Source: Histomonas meleagridis (Eukaryota; Parabasalia; Tritrichomonadida; Dientamoebidae). Taken from it: DNA of 64,000 bases. The notes below the pieces were generated by a model. It made no database searches and was not told where the DNA came from. It saw only the letters and a program-made list of their open reading frames with translations. Shown piece after piece: positions 18,640-53,224 of this stretch. Where the stretch lies: positions 186,001 to 250,000 of the forward strand of contig WSYJ01000036.1 of assembly GCA_020186115.1 (NCBI GenBank). The letters are read 5' to 3'. The first letter of the stretch is position 1. Every line of letters begins with the position of its first letter. A program made the translations under genes and the position numbers.

Positions 18640-19670
18640 ATATCTTTTGCATTAGCATCAATTCCTTCTAAGTAACTGAGCTATTTCTGTATGACCTTTT
18701 GAAGATGCATAAATAAGTGCTGTATTAAATAATTTAAATAATTTTCAAATATAATTTTGAAATAATAAATTATTATAATAAATACAAAATAAAACAAATA
18801 AATATCTTTAGCATTAATATCAATTCCTTCTTGTTCAAGAAGTAATTTGACAATTTCTATATGACCATTTGATGATGCCAAAATAAGTGCTGTATTAAAT
18901 AATTTAAATAATTTCCAAATATTATTTTGAAATATAAAATTATTAAAATAAATTTTAATTAAAACAAATAAATATCTTTAGCATTAATATCAATTCCTTC
19001 TTGTTCAAGAAGTAATTTAACTATTTCTATTCGGCCATTTGAAGATGCTAAAATTATTAATGTTTTAAATAATTTCCAAATATTATTATAAAATTATTAA
19101 AATAAATTTCAAATAAAACAAATAAATATCTTTTATATTAATAACAATTCCTTTTTGTCCAAGTAAAAAGTTAAATATATTAACTTTTATAAAATAATCA
19201 ATTGATTTGTTAAAAACGATTCAACAAACTTCATAATAGTTATCGAAATTATTGTCATAAAGATATTTAAAGATATCATTTCGATGGAATTCAATTGCTG
19301 TCTCATATGCATCTTCAAATGATGAATGGTTTTGTTCACATAAATGAATAATTTCTTCATTTCCACCTGCAATTGCATATTTACCTGCATTATATACTTT
19401 TGCATTATTCATAAGTAAATATTTAAAACATTTAATTGATCCAAAAAATGTTGCATAATCATTTAACGTGACATTTTCTTTATTAATAAATGAGCATCTT
19501 TCATTAAGTGATGGTTCAATTTCTTGATTATAATCAAAATTACTTTGTGATGACATTTCTTGAAGTTTTTCGATTTCATCATTTCGCATTATTTGTGCAA
19601 TCTCATTAGGATTAACTCCTTCTTTAATTAATTTTTTATGAAGTTCCCAATCATTTTGTGAAAGCTACGA
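18640..19670 (-). pseudogene. DUF3447 and ankyrin array, 5' truncated
   Basis: Read right to left, the locus begins abruptly at about 19665 with QNDWELHKKLIKEGVNPNEI. It continues through the DUF3447 core as a 122-codon frame, 19589 to 19221 (KLQEMSSQSNFDYNQ, ERCSFINKENVTLNDYA, NAGKYAIAGGNEEIIHLCEQ), then enters ankyrin units in different frames separated by AT spacers. Anchor bases of three successive units lie at 19059, 18889 and 18719, exactly 170 apart. The N-terminal half of DUF3447 is missing. The adjoining plus-strand gene begins just beyond the break. At least the 5' end is dead; the array itself keeps open units. Confidence 0.75.
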
Positions 19671-20993: not shown

Positions 20994-22262
20994 CTAGGAA
21001 ATGTTGAACTTGCAAATTATATAAAACAACAAACGAAAATTAATATTAATGAGAAAATAATATTTTTGTTTTGTTTAATGTTTCATTTTAAGTTTTGGAG
21101 TTAATTCAATTTTTTTAAAACTGCACTTATTTGGGCAGCTAAAAGTGGAAACTTAGGATTAGTTAAATTCCTTCTTGAACAAAATGGAATTGATGTTAAC
21201 CTTAGAAACATTTATTTGTTTTATTTTTTATTTATTATAATATTTTAATATTTCATAATAACATTTGAAAATTATTTAAATTATTTCCATCTGCACTTAT
21301 GTGTGCTTCTAAATCAGGTTCTACAGAAATTGTTAAATTACTTCTTTCGCATTATGAAATCGATGTTAATTGTAATGTTGTTTATATTTTTTATTTAATA
21401 TTTCAAGATAATATTTGGAAATTTTTAAAATTATTTGAAACAGCTCTTATATTGGCAGTTAAAAATGGTCACAAAGAAATTGTTAAATTACTTGTTGAAC
21501 ATGATGGAATTAATATTAATTATGGTGATATTTCTTTATTTTATTTTATGTTTAATTTAATAATTTGATATTTCATAATAAAATAAAATATTTACATAAA
21601 ATATTTAAAACTGCACTTATTTGGGCAATTGAAAAAGGTTATGTAGAAATAGTTAAATTACTTCTTTCACAATATCAAATCGATGTTAATGTTAGGAATA
21701 TTTATTTGTTTTATTTAAAATTTATTAGTTTTATTTAAAATTTGTTTTAATAATTCCAAATTTCATAATAATATTTGGAAATTATTTATATTATTTTATA
21801 CACCACTTATATTAGCATCTGAAAAAGGTAATAGTGAAATTGTTCAAATGCTTCTTGAGCATGAAGGAATTGATGTTAATTCTAAAAATATTTAAAATTT
21901 TTATTAAATGATAATTTTAATTTCTTGACATTCCAAAACAATTATTGGAAATTAGTTAAATTGTTTGAAACAGCACTTATGAAAGCAACGGCAGTCGGTA
22001 TCGATGCATATATAACAAATTTACTTCTTGAGCATAAAGGAATTGATGTTAATGCTGTTGATGTTTATATTTTTAATTTAAAAATTATTTTATTATTTTA
22101 ATATTTCAAAATAATTTTTGGAATATATTTATATTATACAAAACTGCACTTACAAAAGCGCATTTAGTTCACCGTAAAGAAATTATTCAATTTCTTCTCG
22201 AGTCTGGTGCAACTGATCCACAAGAAGAGAAAAAATATTTATTCATTTCATTTAGAATTTTA
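20994..22262 (+). other. Ankyrin-unit array with AT-rich spacers
   Basis: After the DUF3447 frame come single ankyrin units, each open in its own frame: KTALIWAAKSGNLGLVKFLL, SALMCASKSGSTEIVKLLL, ETALILAVKNGHKEIVKLLV, KTALIWAIEKGYVEIVKLLL, TPLILASEKGNSEIVQMLLE, ETALMKATAVGIDAYITNLL, KTALTKAHLVHRKEIIQFLL. The last unit runs into its own end (ESGATDPQEEKKY). Anchor bases are at 21124, 21294, 21444, 21614, 21804, 21974 and 22147, so the steps are 170, 150, 170, 190, 170 and 173. The spacers contain stops and shift frame. Confidence 0.8.
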
Positions 22263-22339
22263 TTTATATTTTTCGAAAAATATAAATGCATCTAAAAATA
22301 AATAAAAAAACGCATTGAACATAATAAAATTTTTTTTAA

Positions 22340-31162: not shown

Positions 31163-31850
31163 TTATTCTGTGACACCGTGATCATGAAGTAATGTAATTA
31201 TTTCATTATATTCATTTTTTATTGCAAACATATGCGCTGACATAAATAATTCAAATATTTTCCAAATTTTATTTTGAAATATAATATTATTAAAATGATT
31301 GATATTTGAAACAAAAAAAATATTTTTCGCATTAAGATCAATTCCTTCTTGTTCGAGAAGCAATTTAACTATTTCTATATGACCATTTTCAGATGCTTTA
31401 ATAAGTGGTGTTTCAAATGTTTTAAACAATTTCCAAATATTATTTTGAAATATTATAAAATTATTGAAACAAAATTTAAATAAAATAAATAAATATTTTT
31501 AGTATTAATATCATTTCCTTTTTGTTCAAGAAGTAGTTTCACTATTTCTGTATGACCATTTGAAGATGCTTCCATAAGTGCTGTATTAAATATTTAAAAT
31601 AATTTTTAAATATTATCTTGAAATATAAAATTATTAAAATAGATTATAAATAAAACAAATAAATATCTTTAGCATTAATATCAATTACTTCTTGAACAAG
31701 AAGTAATTAAACTATTTCTATTCGATTTTTAAAAGATGCTTTAATAAGTGCTGTATATAATAATTAAAATAATTTCCAAATATTATTTTGAAATAAAAAA
31801 TTATTAAAATATAGTCTATTAAATAAAACAAATAAATATCTTCAGCACAA
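31163..31850 (-). pseudogene. Ankyrin-unit array relic without its DUF3447 part
   Basis: On the minus strand, ankyrin units sit at anchors 31750, 31580, 31407 and 31236 (steps 170, 173, 171). The last two are in one frame because the step happens to be 171, and the final unit (MFAIKNEYNEIITLLHDHGVTE) ends in its own stop. The array stops abruptly at about 31850 at a short GC-richer sequence, CAACTCCCGGTACGATCAGA, not seen in any other array. No DUF3447 domain lies upstream, so the locus is truncated. Confidence 0.75.
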
Positions 31851-45745: not shown

Positions 45746-46993
45746 AACACTCTGATTTCGCCAAAGTACATTCTTAATGATGTTAGTACTACAATATACA
45801 CAGGAGATAAAAATTTGAATAATCCATCAGCCGACTTGAAATTCCTAATTGAGCTTGAGAAAACTATATTCAGTTTAACTGAAGAAAACTTCCAGCCGTC
45901 CATCAAAAAAATATTGGAATTATTCGATTCAAATTATCCATACACATTTAATACTATTATAAGTAACATCGTTTATAATGCATTTTCATCACCAAAGTGT
46001 GTATTTGATGTTTACTTAAATTTTTTAGAGACACTTCAATCTAAAGAAGAAGAAATTAATCAAAATATTGTTAGACTAACATCAATTTTTATCAAACTTA
46101 TATCTAAAATGAACACACAAGAATCTTATTATTTAATTGAGAAAATGATTATACAGAATTTGATTGATAAAAATATTACTAGAAATATTAATTCAAAATA
46201 TTTTGCACACTACAAAACAGAAATAGAAAACAAAAAGAGAAATTATTATCCATTTGAAAAATACTTTTTTGATAATTATGAAGAACTATCAAAGAATGAT
46301 TTTGAACTTCATAAGAAATTAATTAAAGAAGGACATAATCCAAATGAAATTGCAAAGATAATTCGAAATGATGAAATAGAAAAACTTCAAGAAATATCAT
46401 CACAAACAAATTTTAATTTTGATCAAATAATTGAACCATCACTTTATGAAAGATGTTCATTCATTAATCAAAAAAATGTTACACTAACTGATTATGCAGC
46501 ATTTTTTTCTTCTATTAAATGTTTTAAATATTTACTTATGAATGGTGCAAAAGTAGAAAATACAGGTAAATATGCAGTTGCAAGTGGAAATGAAGAAATC
46601 ATTCATTTGTGTGAGCAAAATCATTCATCATTTGAAGGTGCATATGAAACAGCAATTATGTTCCATCGAAATGATATTTTCAAATATCTTTATGAAAGCA
46701 AATTAGAAAAAACACAGCCATATTATTTGGTAAGTTTTTGTATTAAAAAAGATAATTATAATATTCTAAAATATTTTGAAGAAGAAGGAATGAATGTTGA
46801 TGATGATAATATAAATGAATCATCAAGAAATGGAAATTTATATCTTGTTAAATATTTCATTCAAAATAATCAAATTCCTAAAAATATTTTGCCATTTGCT
46901 TCAGAATCAGGAAATGTTGAACTTGTGAAATATATTTTAGATAAAGAAGGAATTGATGTTAATGCAAAAAATATTCATTTTAATAATTTGTAA
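45746..46993 (+). CDS. DUF3447/ankyrin protein lacking an ATG
   Basis: A frame of about 415 codons with the full DUF3447 order: FLIELEKTIFSLTEENFQPS, YPYTFNTIISNIVYNAFSS, DFELHKKLIKEGHNPNEIAK, KLQEISSQTNFNFDQ, RCSFINQKNVTLTDYAAFF, NTGKYAVASGNEEIIHLCEQ, then DIFKYLYESKLE and an ankyrin unit (LPFASESGNVELVKYILDKE, GIDVNAKNIH) before a stop in the spacer. No ATG precedes the domain: the frame opens after a TAA at 45743-45745, and the first Met comes about 100 residues into the domain. The 5' end was probably lost or replaced, perhaps at a junction with the HEAT fragment. It may be a pseudogene. Confidence 0.65.
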   Translation, partial: NTLISPKYILNDVSTTIYTGDKNLNNPSADLKFLIELEKTIFSLTEENFQPSIKKILELFDSNYPYTFNTIISNIVYNAFSSPKCVFDVYLNFLETLQSKEEEINQNIVRLTSIFIKLISKMNTQESYYLIEKMIIQNLIDKNITRNINSKYFAHYKTEIENKKRNYYPFEKYFFDNYEELSKNDFELHKKLIKEGHNPNEIAKIIRNDEIEKLQEISSQTNFNFDQIIEPSLYERCSFINQKNVTLTDYAAFFSSIKCFKYLLMNGAKVENTGKYAVASGNEEIIHLCEQNHSSFEGAYETAIMFHRNDIFKYLYESKLEKTQPYYLVSFCIKKDNYNILKYFEEEGMNVDDDNINESSRNGNLYLVKYFIQNNQIPKNILPFASESGNVELVKYILDKEGIDVNAKNIHFNNL

Positions 46994-48507
46994 TATGTTA
47001 TAATAATTTGAAATATGTTTTAATAATTTATAATATGTTTTAATAATTTTATATATGTTTTAATAATTTGAAATATGTTTTAATAATTTGAAACAGCACT
47101 TCATATAGCAGTTAGAAATAATAATATAGAAATAGTAAAATTACTTTTAGATAAAGAAGGAATTGATGTTAATGCAAAAACTATTCATTTGAATAATTTG
47201 TAATATGTTTTAATAATTTGGAATATGTTTTAATAATTTGGAATATGTTTTAATAATTTAAAATATGTTTTAATAATTTAGAATATATTTTAATAATTTT
47301 ATATATGTTTTAATAATTTGGAATATGTTTTAATAATTTGGAATATGTTTTAAAAATTCGGAATATGTTTTAATAATTTGAAATATGGTTTAATAATTTT
47401 ATATATGTTTTAATAATTTGAAACAGCACTTCATATAGCAGTTAGAAATAATAATATTGAAATCGTAAAATTACTTTTAGATAAAGAAGGAATTGATGTT
47501 AATGTAAAAGATATTTTGAATAATTTTATATATGTTTTAATAATTTTATATATGTTTTAATAATTTGAAACAGCACTTCATATAGCAGTTAGAAATAATA
47601 ATATAGAAATAGTAAAATTACTTTTAGATAAAGGAATTGATGTTCATGTAAAAACTATTCATTTAAATAATTTAGAATGTGTTTTAATAATTTTATATAT
47701 GTTTTAATAATTTTATATATGTTTTAATAAGTTAGAATATGTTTTAATAATTTTATATATGTTTTAATAATTTAGAATATGTTTTAATAATTTAAAATAT
47801 ATTTTAATAATTTTATATATGTTTTAATAATTTATAATATGTTTTAATAATTTAAAATATGTTTTAATAATTTTATATATGTTTTAATAATTTGAAACAG
47901 CACTTCATATAGCTGTTAGAAATATTAATATAGAAATAGTAAAATTACTTTTAGATAAAGGAATTAATATTAATGCTAAAACTATTCATTTGAATAATTT
48001 TATATATGTTTTAATAATTTGAAATATGTTTTAATAATTTGGAATATGTTTTAATAATTTGAAATATGTTTTAATAATTTGAAACAGCACTTCATATAGC
48101 AGTTAGAAATAATAATATAGAAATAGTAAAATTACTTTTAGATAAAGGAATTAATATTAATGCAAAAACTATTCATTTGAATAATTTGTAATATGTTTTA
48201 ATAATATAGAATATGTTTTAATAATTTATAATATGTTTTAATAATTTGGAATATGTTTTAATAATTTAGAATATGTTTTAATAATTTAGAATATGTTTTA
48301 ATAATTTGGAATATGTTTTAATAATTTAAAATATATTTTAATAATTTTATATATGTTTTAATAATTTGGAATATGTTTTAATAATTTAAAATATATTTTA
48401 ATAATTTTATATATGTTTTAATAATTTGGAATATGTTTTAATAATTTAGAATATGTTTTAATAATTTAGAATATGTTTTAATAATTTGGAATATGTTTTA
48501 ATAAATT
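46976..48507. repeat. 20-bp minisatellite TTTTAATAATTTGGAATATG, six blocks
   Basis: Blocks at about 46976-47089, 47193-47419, 47511-47566, 47664-47893, 47990-48080 and 48177-48507, each placed exactly between ankyrin units. Copies differ mainly at the two bases after TTT (GG, GA, AA, TA). Any frame meets a stop within three copies. The last copy of each block merges into TTTGAAACAGCACTT, the start of the next unit. Confidence 0.95.
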
Positions 48508-48595
48508 GAAACAGCAAAACAAATTGCACAACAAAAAGGCTACACAGAAATAGTAAATTTATTTGGTGAAAAAAGTACGAACCAATCGATATAAT
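46994..48595 (+). other. Ankyrin-unit array separated by 20-bp minisatellites
   Basis: Five near-identical units (ETALHIAVRNNNIEIVKLLL DKEGIDVNAKT) begin at 47090, 47420, 47567, 47894 and 48081, and a distinct last unit (ETAKQIAQQKGYTEIVNLFG) begins at 48508 and ends with its own stop after TNQSI. Steps are 330, 147, 327, 187 and 427. Units with a one-codon deletion account for the 3-base offsets, so each step is 170 + 20k (k = 8, -1, 8, 1, 13). All intervening DNA is made of a 20-mer. Confidence 0.85.
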
Positions 48596-49259: not shown

Positions 49260-50609
49260 ATGCAAGGAAAACCCACTTTGAGTTCTCGAAGAACATCAAC
49301 ATCAAGACAAGAAAATTTAATCAGGAGAACCCAAAATCCTTCACTTACCAATACAAAAAACACGAATATGAATACAAAAAAAAATTCAGCTCCATTGCAA
49401 TCATTAGAAAAAATTATATTTGAGTTAAAAAATGATCACATTGAAACATCTTCCAAATCTGCAATGAAGTATTTTGATAATAAATTTCCATATTCTTTTA
49501 ATCTTTTCATTAGTAGTTTAATATATACAGCTTTTTTATCTCAAAGAAATGATGCAATTTTATATTTGAATTTTATGAAATCTATTGAAACATTAGAAAA
49601 AGGCGTTCAATGTAACTCAATAATAAATGTTTTTAAGAATTATTTATTAAGATTAAAATCACAAGAATCAAATCATTTACTTACAAAAATGATCGAATAT
49701 GAACTAATTCAACCTGATTTTGTTCAGAATAAGAGATCATTATGTTATGCAAATTATTATTCAGATGAAGAAATTCATAGTTATAATTATAAATTTCAAG
49801 AACAGTTTCTTATAGATCTTGAAGAACTATCAAAGAATGATTGGGAACTTCATAAGCAATTAATAAAAGAAGGAGTTAATCCAAATGAAATATTAAAAAT
49901 AATTCGAAATGATGAAATTGAAAAACTTCAAGAAATTTCATCACAAACAAACTTCGATTTTAATCAACATGTTAAACCATCACTTTATGAAAGATATTCA
50001 TTTATTAATGAAAAGAATGTTTCAATAATTGATTTTGCAGCCTTTTTCGGAGCAATTAAATGTTTTCGATTTTTACTTATGAATGGTTCTACAATCGAAA
50101 ACACATTAAAATATGCAATTGCTGGTGGAAATTTAGAGATTACATATTTATGTGAACAAAACATTTTATCAATTGAAGAAGTATATAAAACAGCAATTGA
50201 ATTTCATCGGAATGAAATTTTTCAATATTTTTACGAAAAGAAAAAAATACCAAATAAAGATTTAACAAAATATGGAATGCATTGCTTAAGATATTGTAAT
50301 TTCAAAATGTTTATGTTTTTAAAATCAGTTGGTATGAAAATAAACAAAGAAATTTTAGAAGAAGCAATATTAAATGGTAATACATTCTTTATCAAACGAT
50401 ATATAACAGATAAAAAATATTTTCCAATCATTTCAAATTGTCCAAATGCGTCAAGAAATTATGAGTTAATTAAAATGATTCTTGAACAAGGCGACTTTAA
50501 TAAAATTACACTAAATATTGGTTTAACTTGTTTAAAATTTGTTTTAATTGATTTATGTTTTCTATTTCAATTTAAATTTTCTTTAATTTGTTTAATGCAC
50601 AACTTTTAA
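49260..50609 (+). CDS. DUF3447/ankyrin protein
   Basis: 449 residues with a proper ATG. A basic, Ser/Thr-rich N-terminus (MQGKPTLSSRRTSTSRQENL) precedes the DUF3447 helical domain (LEKIIFELKNDH, FPYSFNLFISSLIYTAFLS) and core (DWELHKQLIKEGVNPNEILK, EKLQEISSQTNFDFNQ, ERYSFINEKNVSIIDFAAFF, AIAGGNLEITYLCEQ, NGNTFFIKRYITDKKYF). The last ankyrin unit (NASRNYELIKMILEQGDFNK) runs into hydrophobic spacer-coded sequence before a stop. This is the best candidate for an expressed DUF3447 gene here; the long array follows directly. DUF3447 proteins are abundant in trichomonads and of unknown function. Confidence 0.85.
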   Translation: MQGKPTLSSRRTSTSRQENLIRRTQNPSLTNTKNTNMNTKKNSAPLQSLEKIIFELKNDHIETSSKSAMKYFDNKFPYSFNLFISSLIYTAFLSQRNDAILYLNFMKSIETLEKGVQCNSIINVFKNYLLRLKSQESNHLLTKMIEYELIQPDFVQNKRSLCYANYYSDEEIHSYNYKFQEQFLIDLEELSKNDWELHKQLIKEGVNPNEILKIIRNDEIEKLQEISSQTNFDFNQHVKPSLYERYSFINEKNVSIIDFAAFFGAIKCFRFLLMNGSTIENTLKYAIAGGNLEITYLCEQNILSIEEVYKTAIEFHRNEIFQYFYEKKKIPNKDLTKYGMHCLRYCNFKMFMFLKSVGMKINKEILEEAILNGNTFFIKRYITDKKYFPIISNCPNASRNYELIKMILEQGDFNKITLNIGLTCLKFVLIDLCFLFQFKFSLICLMHNF

Positions 50610-53224
50610 TAGCTGCAGAAAATGGTTATTATGAAACAATACAATGGCTTTCTCAACAAACTGGGTTTGATGTTAATTATAGTGGTATATTTTTGTTTTA
50701 TTTGAAATTAATTTTAATAATTTGATATATAAAAATAATAATCGGAACTTACTTCTATTATTTGAAACTTTATTAATGTTAGCAATTAAAAATTATCAGA
50801 TGGAAGTAATTAGATTTCTTCTTAAACATAAAAAAATTGATATTAACGCGAAAGACATTTATTTATTTTATATAGAATTTATTTTATTAATTTTATATTT
50901 CAATGTTATATTTGAAAATTGTTCTAAATATTTAAAACAGCGCTAATGAAAGCATGTCAAAATGGTTATACAGAAATAGTTAAGTTACTTCTTAAACAAA
51001 AAGGAATTGATGTTGCTGCTAAAAATACTTGTTTGTTTTGTTTAGGGTTTATTTTTATATTTTTGGATTTGCAAATGGTTTTTGGAAATTATTCGAATCA
51101 TTTGAAACAGCACTTACTTATGCATCGCAAAAAGGTTGTATTGAAATAGTTAAAATACTTCTTAAACAAGAAGGAATTAATAGCAATACTAAGAATAATT
51201 GTTTTAAATGTTTCATATTTATTCTAATAATTTGATAATTAAAAATATTATTTAAAATTTATCAAGACCTTTTGAAAAGGCACTTTTTTTTGCTGTTGAA
51301 AAAAATTATATTGAAATAGTTAAATTACTTCTTGAACAAAAAGGGATTGCTCTTAATACTAGTAATATTTACTTATATTGTTTTGGATTTATTTTATTAA
51401 TTTAATGTTTCAAAGTAATAATAGGAAATCGTTTAAGCTATTTGATACAGTCCTTATTTATGCATCTCATCGTGGTTATTTATATACCGTTAAAATACTT
51501 CTTGAACAAGAAGGAATTGATATTAATGCTAAAAATATTTATTTGCTTTATTTGGTATTTATTGTAATAATTTTTAATTTTAAAATAATATTTGGAAATT
51601 ATTTAAATTATTTTATACAGCACTTATGTCTGCATCTTATAATTGTCATACAGAAATAGTTAAATTACTTCTTGAACAAGAAGGAATTGATATTAATGAT
51701 AAAAATAATATTTATTTTAATAATCTGATATTTCAAAATAATATTTGGAAATTATTTAAATTATTTTATACAGCACTTATGTTAGCATCTTCAAATGGCC
51801 GAATAGAAATAGTTAAATTACTTCTTGAACAAGAAGGAATTGATATTAATGCTAAAGATATTTATTTGTTTTATTTAATGTTTGTTTTAATAATTTTGTA
51901 TTTAAAAATAAAATTTGGAAATTATTTTAAACATTTAAAACAGCACTTATGCATGCATCTGAAAAAGGTCATACAGAAATCGTTAAATTACTTCTTGAAC
52001 AAGAAGGTATTAATATTAATGCTAAAGACATTTATTTGTTTTATTTAAAATTTATTTGATTGATTTGATATTTAAAAGTAATATTTGGAAATTATTTATA
52101 TTATTTAAAACAGCACTTATATTAGCATCTGAAAAAGGTCATACAGAAATCGTTAAATTACTTCTTGAACAAGAAGGTATTAATATTAATGCTAAAGATA
52201 TTTATTTATTTTATTTAAAATTTATTTAAATAATTTGATATTTCAAAATAATATTTGGAAATTATTTTAAAAATTTGAAACAGCACTTATGCATGCATCT
52301 GAAAAAGGTCATACAGAAATCGTTAAATTACTTCTTGAACAAGAAGGTATTGACATTAATGATAAAGACATTTATTTGTTTTACTTAAAATTTATTATAT
52401 TAATTTGATATTTCAAAATAATATTTGGAAATTTATTAAATTATTTTGGACAGCACTTTTTATATCATATTATTGTACACGTCAAAAAGATGTTTTTAAA
52501 TTACTTATTAAGGATGAAAGAACAAATCTTAACTTTCAATATATTTGCACAAACAATTTCAAATTTGTATAAATTATTTGATATTTACTTAAATAATTTA
52601 AAATTTTAACTAAAAATATGGAATTTATTTTGGTTGTTTGAAACTATTTTTACGCTTGCAATAAAAGATCTTCCTATTGAAATGATTAAATTTCTTCTTG
52701 AACAAAAACAAATTGATATCAATAAGAAAAATTTTCATTTCTTCATTTTGCAATTTATTTCGAATATTTCATGTTTATAATGAATGTATGGAATTTATTT
52801 AAATCATTTGACACACCGCTTATGGTTGCAATTCAAAATGGTAAACTTGAAGTTGTTAAATTATTATGTAAACAAGAAGGAATTAATATCAATGCAAAAA
52901 ATATTTATATTTTTTATTTGCAATTTTATTTTGGAATTTGATTTTTCAAAAAAATATATGGAGTTTGCTCTATATTTTTGATACAGCACTTATGATTGCA
53001 GCTTCAAAGGATAATGCTGATATTGTTAAATTACTCTTGAAACAAAAAGAAATCAATGTTGATGCAAAAAATATTTCTTTGTTAATTCTAAAATGGTATA
53101 TATTCATCGTATTTATCATTTCTTTTTTTGGAATTTATTAAAATTATATCATACTGCACTTGTAATAGCAAATAATAGGGGCCACACGCAAGTTGTTGAA
53201 ATTCTTCATAATAAATCTCATTGA
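50594..53224 (+). other. Long ankyrin-unit array with 170-bp period
   Basis: Sixteen units, each open through its ankyrin part (for example ETLLMLAIKNYQMEVIRFLL, KTALMKACQNGYTEIVKLLL, YTALMLASSNGRIEIVKLLL, DTALMIAASKDNADIVKLLL) and each in a frame different from its neighbour. The final unit, HTALVIANNRGHTQVVEILH, ends with its own stop after NKSH. Anchor bases: 50601, 50771, 50941, 51111, 51281, 51451, 51621, 51774, 51944, 52114, 52284, 52454, 52647, 52817, 52987, 53157. Thirteen of fifteen steps are exactly 170; the others are 153 and 193. Confidence 0.9.

Follow-up and report, generated by a model that had tools for sequence, protein, structure and literature searches.

The locus and its 170-base register

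We analyzed an ankyrin array on the plus strand of a 64-kb stretch of Histomonas meleagridis DNA (hereafter the window), in which an open reading frame (ORF) with a DUF3447 domain is followed by repeat units whose spacers resolve into 17-base inserts and single codons. Sixteen units follow the ORF, and an additional unit lies inside the upstream open frame at 50427, exactly 170 bases before unit 1. The step between units is 170 bases in 13 of 15 window intervals, with the remaining two measuring 153 and 193, and the autocorrelation at lag 170 reaches 0.646 versus 0.30–0.38 at 49 other lags in the range 150–199. Unit starts, steps, and autocorrelation peak together confirm the initial annotation of this DNA, which had described sixteen units in a 170-base register. 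Its further statements that 170 cannot be divided by three and that stops occur in the spacers were likewise borne out, and the register proved to be genome-wide rather than local.

Units were located with an nhmmer profile in the window and in 20 loci picked by similarity to the window array, from a scanned genome of 43.3 Mb in 121 contigs. This sample underlies the unit stack, free-length segmentation, gene-end, change-count, insert-end, and frame-blind results below. It contains 328 units, with a step of exactly 170 in 217 of 302 cases, 8 of the 302 being gaps between arrays. The start of the twelfth window unit was set at the in-register ACA at 52450, where the search had placed it at 52453. 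Chance unit matches at 52554 and 53068, both of which contain stops, were discarded. At least 221 genomic sites match the array DNA, spacers included (40 of 1,954 first-look candidates were scored), with 79–91% identity among the matches listed, self apart; a phage collection gave no match.

One locus, L010 (G000:C72:127500-137499), holds 40 units, of which six are shifted by +1 and one by −1, with many steps of 171; the shifts perhaps represent a frameshift that has spread or homopolymer errors in the long-read assembly. L010 was excluded from the codon stack, step exceptions, insert information, free-length segmentation, change counts, insert ends, main Ka/Ks (ratio of non-synonymous to synonymous change), and codon contrast.

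Spacers composed of 17-base inserts and single codons

The 179 full-length units with an exact 170-base step from the window and the 20 loci (200 if L010 is included) were stacked. Each unit comprises 34 codons (102 bases) and four AT-rich inserts of 17 bases, such that 170 = 102 + 4 × 17. The initial annotation had proposed 71 bases to excise around a 33-residue repeat; this figure was wrong, as the non-coding part consists of four 17-base pieces (68 bases). The spacer layout is Asp-[17]-x-[17]-x-[17]-Gly-[17]-x-Thr-Ala-Leu, with four single codons, each flanked by inserts. The commonest forms of the four inserts, ATTTATTTGTTTTATTT, ATTTATTTTAATAATTT, ATTTCAAAATAATATTT, and AATTATTTAAATTATTT, occur in 101, 116, 85, and 94 of the 179 units, respectively. 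Stops are found at single spacer positions in up to 92% of units, and the third insert carries TAA in its own frame (position 140) in 92%.

The isolated triplets (108–110, 128–130, 148–150, and 168–170) lie 20 bases apart, and conservation across the stack is high save at the recognition codons and triplets 108–110, 128–130, and 168–170. Although these codons are highly variable, none of the 716 isolated triplets is a stop. Slots 1 to 4 admit 14, 16, 5, and 13 kinds of amino acid: slot 1 is mainly K/N/E/D, slot 2 D/Y/G/N, slot 3 Gly (156 of 179 units), and slot 4 N/E/K/R/D/Y/Q/W. Among triplets with A or G as second base, T stands first 72 times when a pyrimidine follows in third position and never when a stop would result; with each codon counted once per array and slot, the contrast is 33 versus 0 (Fisher p=1.4e-10, the arrays being related). 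As translated in the skip phase, the isolated codons complete a D-x-x-G-x-T-A-L ankyrin turn that is absent from the unit alone. Without its inserts, a unit reads as 34 codons with T-A-L-x-x-A-S and, from the isolated codons, x-x-G-x, as expected of the ankyrin class. Such a turn is present in fused ankyrin genes of the same genome, where Gly occupies the corresponding place in 9 of 13 repeats (five loci).

The exceptional steps follow the same arithmetic. In steps of 153, one 17-mer is gone and two codons are adjacent; steps of 173 have mostly gained one codon, and the two steps of 190 have gained a codon and an insert. In the window array, 14 spacers have four inserts, one has three, and one has five, for a total of 64 inserts. 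Cutting the 16 spacers as 17 + 3 gives 65 codons without a stop, a cut that is imposed on the spacers and hence tests the codons only; Gly precedes the last codon in 13 of 16, and the cut holds down to 64% spacer identity with the commonest form. The features of the array are listed below; units were placed by the unit search and spacers by both free-length segmentation and the 17 + 3 cut unless noted otherwise.

49260–50516 (+), N-terminal coding part, insert-free, DUF3447 (Pfam E=1.3e-9); from the ORF listing, open to a stop ending at 50609; homologues P0001–P0013
50427–50516 (+), ankyrin-like unit 0, sharing the frame of the N-terminal ORF
50517–50596 (+), spacer, inserts 50517–50533, 50537–50553, 50557–50573, and 50577–50593, codons K,Y,K,N; 17 + 3 cut
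50597–50686 (+), ankyrin unit 1
50687–50766 (+), spacer, 4 × 17, codons E,D,G,E
50767–50856 (+), ankyrin unit 2
50857–50936 (+), spacer, 4 × 17, codons R,Y,E,K
50937–51026 (+), ankyrin unit 3
51027–51106 (+), spacer, 4 × 17, codons R,W,G,E; 17 + 3 cut, free-length favoring inserts of 16 and 18
51107–51196 (+), ankyrin unit 4
51197–51276 (+), spacer, 4 × 17, codons H,D,K,E
51277–51366 (+), ankyrin unit 5
51367–51446 (+), spacer, 4 × 17, codons W,N,G,D; 17 + 3 cut, free-length giving a different parse of the second half
51447–51536 (+), ankyrin unit 6
51537–51616 (+), spacer, 4 × 17, codons G,L,G,Y
51617–51706 (+), ankyrin unit 7
51707–51769 (+), spacer of the 153 step, without the first insert; N, then inserts 51710–51726, 51730–51746, and 51750–51766, codons D,G,Y
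51770–51859 (+), ankyrin unit 8
51860–51939 (+), spacer, 4 × 17, codons N,C,G,K
51940–52029 (+), ankyrin unit 9
52030–52109 (+), spacer, 4 × 17, codons K,D,G,K
52110–52199 (+), ankyrin unit 10
52200–52279 (+), spacer, 4 × 17, codons K,D,G,E
52280–52369 (+), ankyrin unit 11
52370–52449 (+), spacer, 4 × 17, codons K,D,G,W
52450–52542 (+), ankyrin unit 12, one codon extra; unit search and free-length
52543–52642 (+), spacer of the 193 step, 5 × 17, codons Q,D,K,G,E
52643–52732 (+), ankyrin unit 13, diverged
52733–52812 (+), spacer, 4 × 17, codons A,H,G,D; 17 + 3 cut, free-length favoring 16 and 18 in the first half
52813–52902 (+), ankyrin unit 14, diverged
52903–52982 (+), spacer, 4 × 17, codons A,D,G,D
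52983–53072 (+), ankyrin unit 15, diverged
53073–53152 (+), spacer, 4 × 17, diverged inserts, codons K,Y,G,H; 17 + 3 cut, free-length giving a different parse
53153–53224 (+), last, C-terminal unit, in-phase stop at its end; translation in phase

Length is the firmest feature of the inserts. When lengths were left free between 11 and 23, with end weights learned from 17-mers, a length of 17 was assigned to 909 of the 1,018 inserts from 258 spacers; the count retains the spacers parsed at other lengths, and the program is unable to place adjacent inserts (as at 47513). Together with the spacing of consecutive inserts, this result gives a length range as narrow as that of ultra-short introns (15–17 bases). 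A strict frame-blind count, with L010 included, placed 201 of 221 steps of 170 on the 17 + 3 lattice, for which chance would give one third; diverged inserts escape this count, which missed, among others, 13 of 27 steps on the plus strand of the window. The insert ends are weak (A/G, T, T, T at the start and A, T, T, T at the end), amounting to about 8 bits in all among 178 distinct inserts.

Selection on isolated and core codons

Changes were counted once per array over 24 arrays, with the spectrum of changes in the inserts serving as the expectation; because G and C are too scarce in the inserts, the rates expected at those bases were assumed from the rates at A and T. Inserts accumulated 6.6 changes per site and the three core codon positions 5.7, 3.4, and 5.9, whereas the isolated codons averaged 27, 16, and 17, with far fewer in the Gly slot. 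In core codons, non-synonymous changes reached 0.62 of expectation, synonymous changes 1.05, and changes to stop 0.34 (8 seen, 23.8 expected). Non-synonymous changes in the variable (recognition) codons stood at 1.88 of expectation; seven codons had been set aside as variable after conservation was viewed, of which five were tested and two were omitted, as their column consensus read as a stop. The initial annotation had proposed dN/dS within units as a check. Taken over the whole unit, the ratio is about 1 and lends no support; split by codon class, core codons give 0.59 and variable codons 2.05. The core thus appears to be conserved at the protein level and the recognition residues, those in isolated codons included, to be diversified. 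That recognition and isolated codons change faster than the inserts suggests rapidly evolving binding surfaces in the array family (50597–53152 in the window).

Related arrays in the window and genome

A second array in the window (46883–48594) consists of runs of mostly ATATGTTTTAATAATTT plus one codon each, and its final unit carries an in-phase stop. Its 54 isolated codons are TAT (12), GAA (11), GGA (11), AGA (9), AAA (5), ATA (3), and GTA (3), with no stop. This array belongs to a second gene of the same kind (45815–48594), in which a DUF3447/ankyrin ORF is followed by units between runs of up to 17 inserts; its isolated codons are low in complexity and never stops. The spacer at 47513–47569 in this gene can be read as a 17-mer without a codon or as a 14-mer with one. 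Three further insert-bearing ankyrin arrays lie in the window at 18683–19163 (−), 31243–31847 (−), and 21120–22292 (+); two units in the minus-strand arrays have a stop or frameshift.

Across the genome, a triplet lies between two second-type inserts 1,992 times (3 for a reversed control pattern), and a triplet between two first-type inserts with GGA in the next slot occurs 1,016 times (control, 0). The gap between second-type inserts is 3 bases in these 1,992 cases, 4–5 bases in 2, and 1–2 or 6 bases in none. The second-type triplets include TAA/TGA 3 times, TAT/TGT 341, VAA/VGA 1,219, and VAT/VGT 66; with first and third bases independent within these classes, approximately 258 stops would be expected. 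The first-type triplets include no TAA or TGA, the two stops that the genome-wide counts cover (TAG lies outside them). The copies are related and thus not independent events; the contrast of stops with TAT is nevertheless not produced by amplification alone.

Gene ends and homologues

The window gene opens in the DUF3447 open frame and closes with an in-phase stop. In 12 of 28 arrays, the open frame that contains the first detected unit also has an ATG, 96–383 codons upstream; the open stretch at other first units, including that of the window, is short because inserts precede them. In 14 of 28 arrays, a stop falls inside the 90 bases of the last unit, in some cases by frameshift, compared with 4 stops in 258 indel-free units overall. 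The N-terminal ORF of the window has 13 homologues (P0001–P0013) with 39–51% identity. Six of the 13 stop one residue past the turn Asp, where an insert would start; P0003 is shorter, the others continue for some residues, and P0013 continues through a three-insert spacer. Three N-terminal ORFs of the family (398–428 residues) are labeled "caskin" by NCBI.

Among the listed proteins P0024–P0143 are many fragments from short contigs that contain three-insert ankyrin units with a consensus of their own, IVKILVEQEGIDINAK. A turn-to-TAL pattern limited to 17–25 residues caught cases in 50 of the 120 listed proteins, and the stretch measures 21 residues in 50 of 59 cases, although predicted proteins are biased to open frames. 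Twenty-one residues correspond to 63 bases, or 3 × 17 + 12, and the variable residues fall at columns 1, 7–8, and 21. Compared with part of the Histomonas genome, this set looks like a second lineage, perhaps another parabasalid, with the same layout; in that comparison, the best identities were 42–59% for P0001–P0013. The genome paper on virulent H. meleagridis gives 43.4 Mb, 28.7% GC, and 573 introns, never more than one per gene (PMC8529796). The one ankyrin protein named in a proteomics paper does not, as far as that account shows, derive from these arrays (PMC10063853).

Probable skipping of the inserts and its alternatives

Given the stop-free isolated codons, the open start in the DUF3447 frame, and the in-phase terminal stop, it is very probable that the path from gene to protein skips the inserts; this is the simplest reading of codons selected in the skip phase. 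The array would then form the 3′ portion of a single ankyrin gene whose coding sequence is broken between codons by AT-rich 17-mers that sit in the loop of each repeat and leave single codons between them; every insert would be skipped and the codons joined on the way to the protein. As the single codons within the spacer are selected as codons, the skipped pieces would be the four 17-mers and not one block. The sequence itself establishes the anatomy, the nearly constant insert length, the phase, and the selection acting on isolated codons. We infer that a protein is made at present and, with less certainty, that skipping is excision from RNA, in which a machinery would measure a fixed length, read the weak ends (A/G-T-T-T ... 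A-T-T-T), and cut RNA without GT and AG. We lean towards this fuller account of a single ankyrin gene with all of its inserts skipped, RNA excision being favored. The statement at its widest is that a eukaryote carries thousands of 17-base inserts between nuclear codons, all skipped accurately by a process that is neither GT-AG splicing nor a known bypass and that recognizes length over sequence; here we consider the case for and against evenly balanced. Two views of the initial annotation have good support: that the spacers have to be taken out, and that the array is explained neither by a plain pseudogene nor by a plain gene.

Several observations weigh against skipping as described. No known machinery fits, and GT...AG occurs in 0 of 716 inserts even with boundaries shifted by −3 to +3, in line with the earlier remark that no such signal is present. 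The trichomonad branch/3′ motif RCTAACACAYAG is found 0 times in the window, and CTAACACAYAG 0 times in 36 loci, the type B motif lying outside the search. Where ultra-short introns have conserved sequence or GT-AG, the inserts offer a loose ATTT...ATTT. One failed skip among approximately 64 would ruin the product, and near-perfect fidelity would therefore be needed. Outside ankyrin arrays, no insert of 17 bases was detected in approximately 256 kb; AT-rich pieces joining two long frames had length 17 in 5 cases and each of ten other lengths in 3–7, showing no excess. Three other offsets of the 20-mer also yield 0 of 716 stops, those positions being nearly invariant. Free-length segmentation, with its weights learned from 17-mers, picks other lengths in 4 of 15 window spacers (51027, 51367, 52733, and 53073), and the strict frame-blind count puts just 45 of 69 non-170 steps on the lattice. 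Whole-unit Ka/Ks in the coding frame is 1.11 between arrays and 1.04 within (0.48 within L010), and wrong-frame values between arrays are 0.67 and 1.46, one of which is below the coding frame; whole-unit Ka/Ks alone is no evidence for selection. Lastly, some copies are damaged: stops occur in 4 of 258 indel-free units, and frame-shifting indels are present in 12 of 276 full units, 7 of which belong to L010.

The main rival to RNA excision is ribosomal bypass, by which messenger RNA would retain the inserts and the ribosome would hop 17 bases each time, as at byp elements and T4 gene 60. We regard bypass as unlikely. Inserts that fall between codons would suit a phase-aware process, but the shared phase may stem from one ancestral unit; the nearly constant length and the failure to find splice signals (GT...AG or the trichomonad 3′ motif) agree with hopping as well. 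However, the final triplet of the insert repeats the codon that precedes the insert in just 6 of 716 cases. The first insert triplet is ATT in 485 and AAT in 178 of 716, neither a stop nor a rare codon, and both are ordinary within units (410 and 342 of 5,370 codons).

It is improbable that the arrays are an untranslated relic or satellite, with the N-terminal ORF alone made and the repeats homogenized by unequal exchange and gene conversion. The initial annotation had offered a homogenized satellite as its alternative, and the likeness of arrays genome-wide (79–91% identity among the matches listed) agrees with that part of it, as do frameshifts and stops in some arrays, the whole-unit Ka/Ks near 1, and the six homologues that end one residue after the first turn Asp. 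What homogenization leaves unexplained is the avoidance of stops and the ankyrin spelling. Isolated codons outpace the inserts (27, 16, and 17 versus 6.6 changes per site) yet are almost stop-free, core codons change less than expected, gene conversion cannot know codon positions, and the diverged 3′ units of the window array are still cut into 17 plus a sense codon.

Removal at the DNA level, through an insert-free expressed copy made or kept elsewhere in the cell, would likewise place the isolated codons under selection, but we think it very doubtful. The genome does contain fused ankyrin genes; the five loci read are, however, other, diverged genes, in a twin search that was not exhaustive. 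We know of no DNA-level removal of this sort in trichomonads.

Translation of the spacers, by frameshift at each 17-mer or straight through three inserts, is more improbable still. Three inserts make 51 bases, and arrays with 153 steps can stay open for some length, with 13 of 21 three-insert spacers free of read-through stops. The other 8 of 21 contain a read-through stop and none of the 21 a stop in the skip phase; straight translation is therefore not what is selected, and the in-frame TAA of the third insert also stands against it. The single non-canonical intron of about 71 bases per repeat suggested by the initial annotation finds the least support, since cutting 71 or 68 bases at once restores the frame but would discard the stop-free, ankyrin-like isolated codons and leave the unit without the xxGx of the turn.

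Skipping of the inserts would mean that, in the reading of a nuclear gene, dozens of interruptions are crossed one codon at a time by a process for which no signals are known. This would be either the most extreme splicing known to us, with 3-base exons and 17-base introns, or hopping on a large scale in the eukaryotic cytosol, and a large ankyrin gene family of this bird-gut parasite would have been missed or shortened by ordinary gene prediction.

Comparison with known systems

Among the open-access titles and abstract openings listed, we found none describing such inserts or gene layout, nor, in the same literature, a precedent for removal without GT-AG and with 3-base exons. Ankyrin repeats are described as approximately 33 residues long with a GXTPLHLA-type motif (PMC4687027). 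The Histomonas units resemble DUF3447 ankyrin proteins in sequence, turn motif, and variable positions, but differ in that the coding sequence of the repeat is split codon by codon.

Among bypass systems, the mitochondrial genome of Magnusiomyces capitatus is reported to have byp elements at 81 positions, with a take-off/landing match that is not strict (PMC5009743), and T4 gene 60 is a single phage gene (PMC5009743, PMC8211752). As these accounts describe known bypass, the take-off codon is usually matched at landing, and a stop or unused codon stands at take-off. Both systems share with the arrays blocks of insert that break the frame, which in their case are skipped without splicing; unlike them, Histomonas has thousands of inserts of equal length in nuclear genes, with ordinary codons on either side.

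Trichomonad introns belong to related organisms and are reported as type A (56–196 bases) and type B (23–28 bases), with GT...AG and an extended branch/3′ motif (PMC12316389). Type B introns are likewise very short. Their GT...AG was not found at the inserts, nor their branch/3′ motif in the window or the 36 loci, in a search that did not extend to the type B motif.

The closest likeness in length is to the spliceosomal introns of mikrocytids (16–17 bases), which are described as having shared conserved sequences and as occurring in 179 genes of M. mackini (PMC10245619), and to those of Stentor (15–16 bases, 75.6% AU, mostly with a GU start and AG end; PMC9505925). The inserts differ from both in their loose sequence without GT-AG, their detection in ankyrin arrays alone, and the single codons that form the stretches between them. 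What they share is an AU-rich composition and a near-fixed length at the same extreme, and the existence of such introns gives length-constrained excision a precedent.

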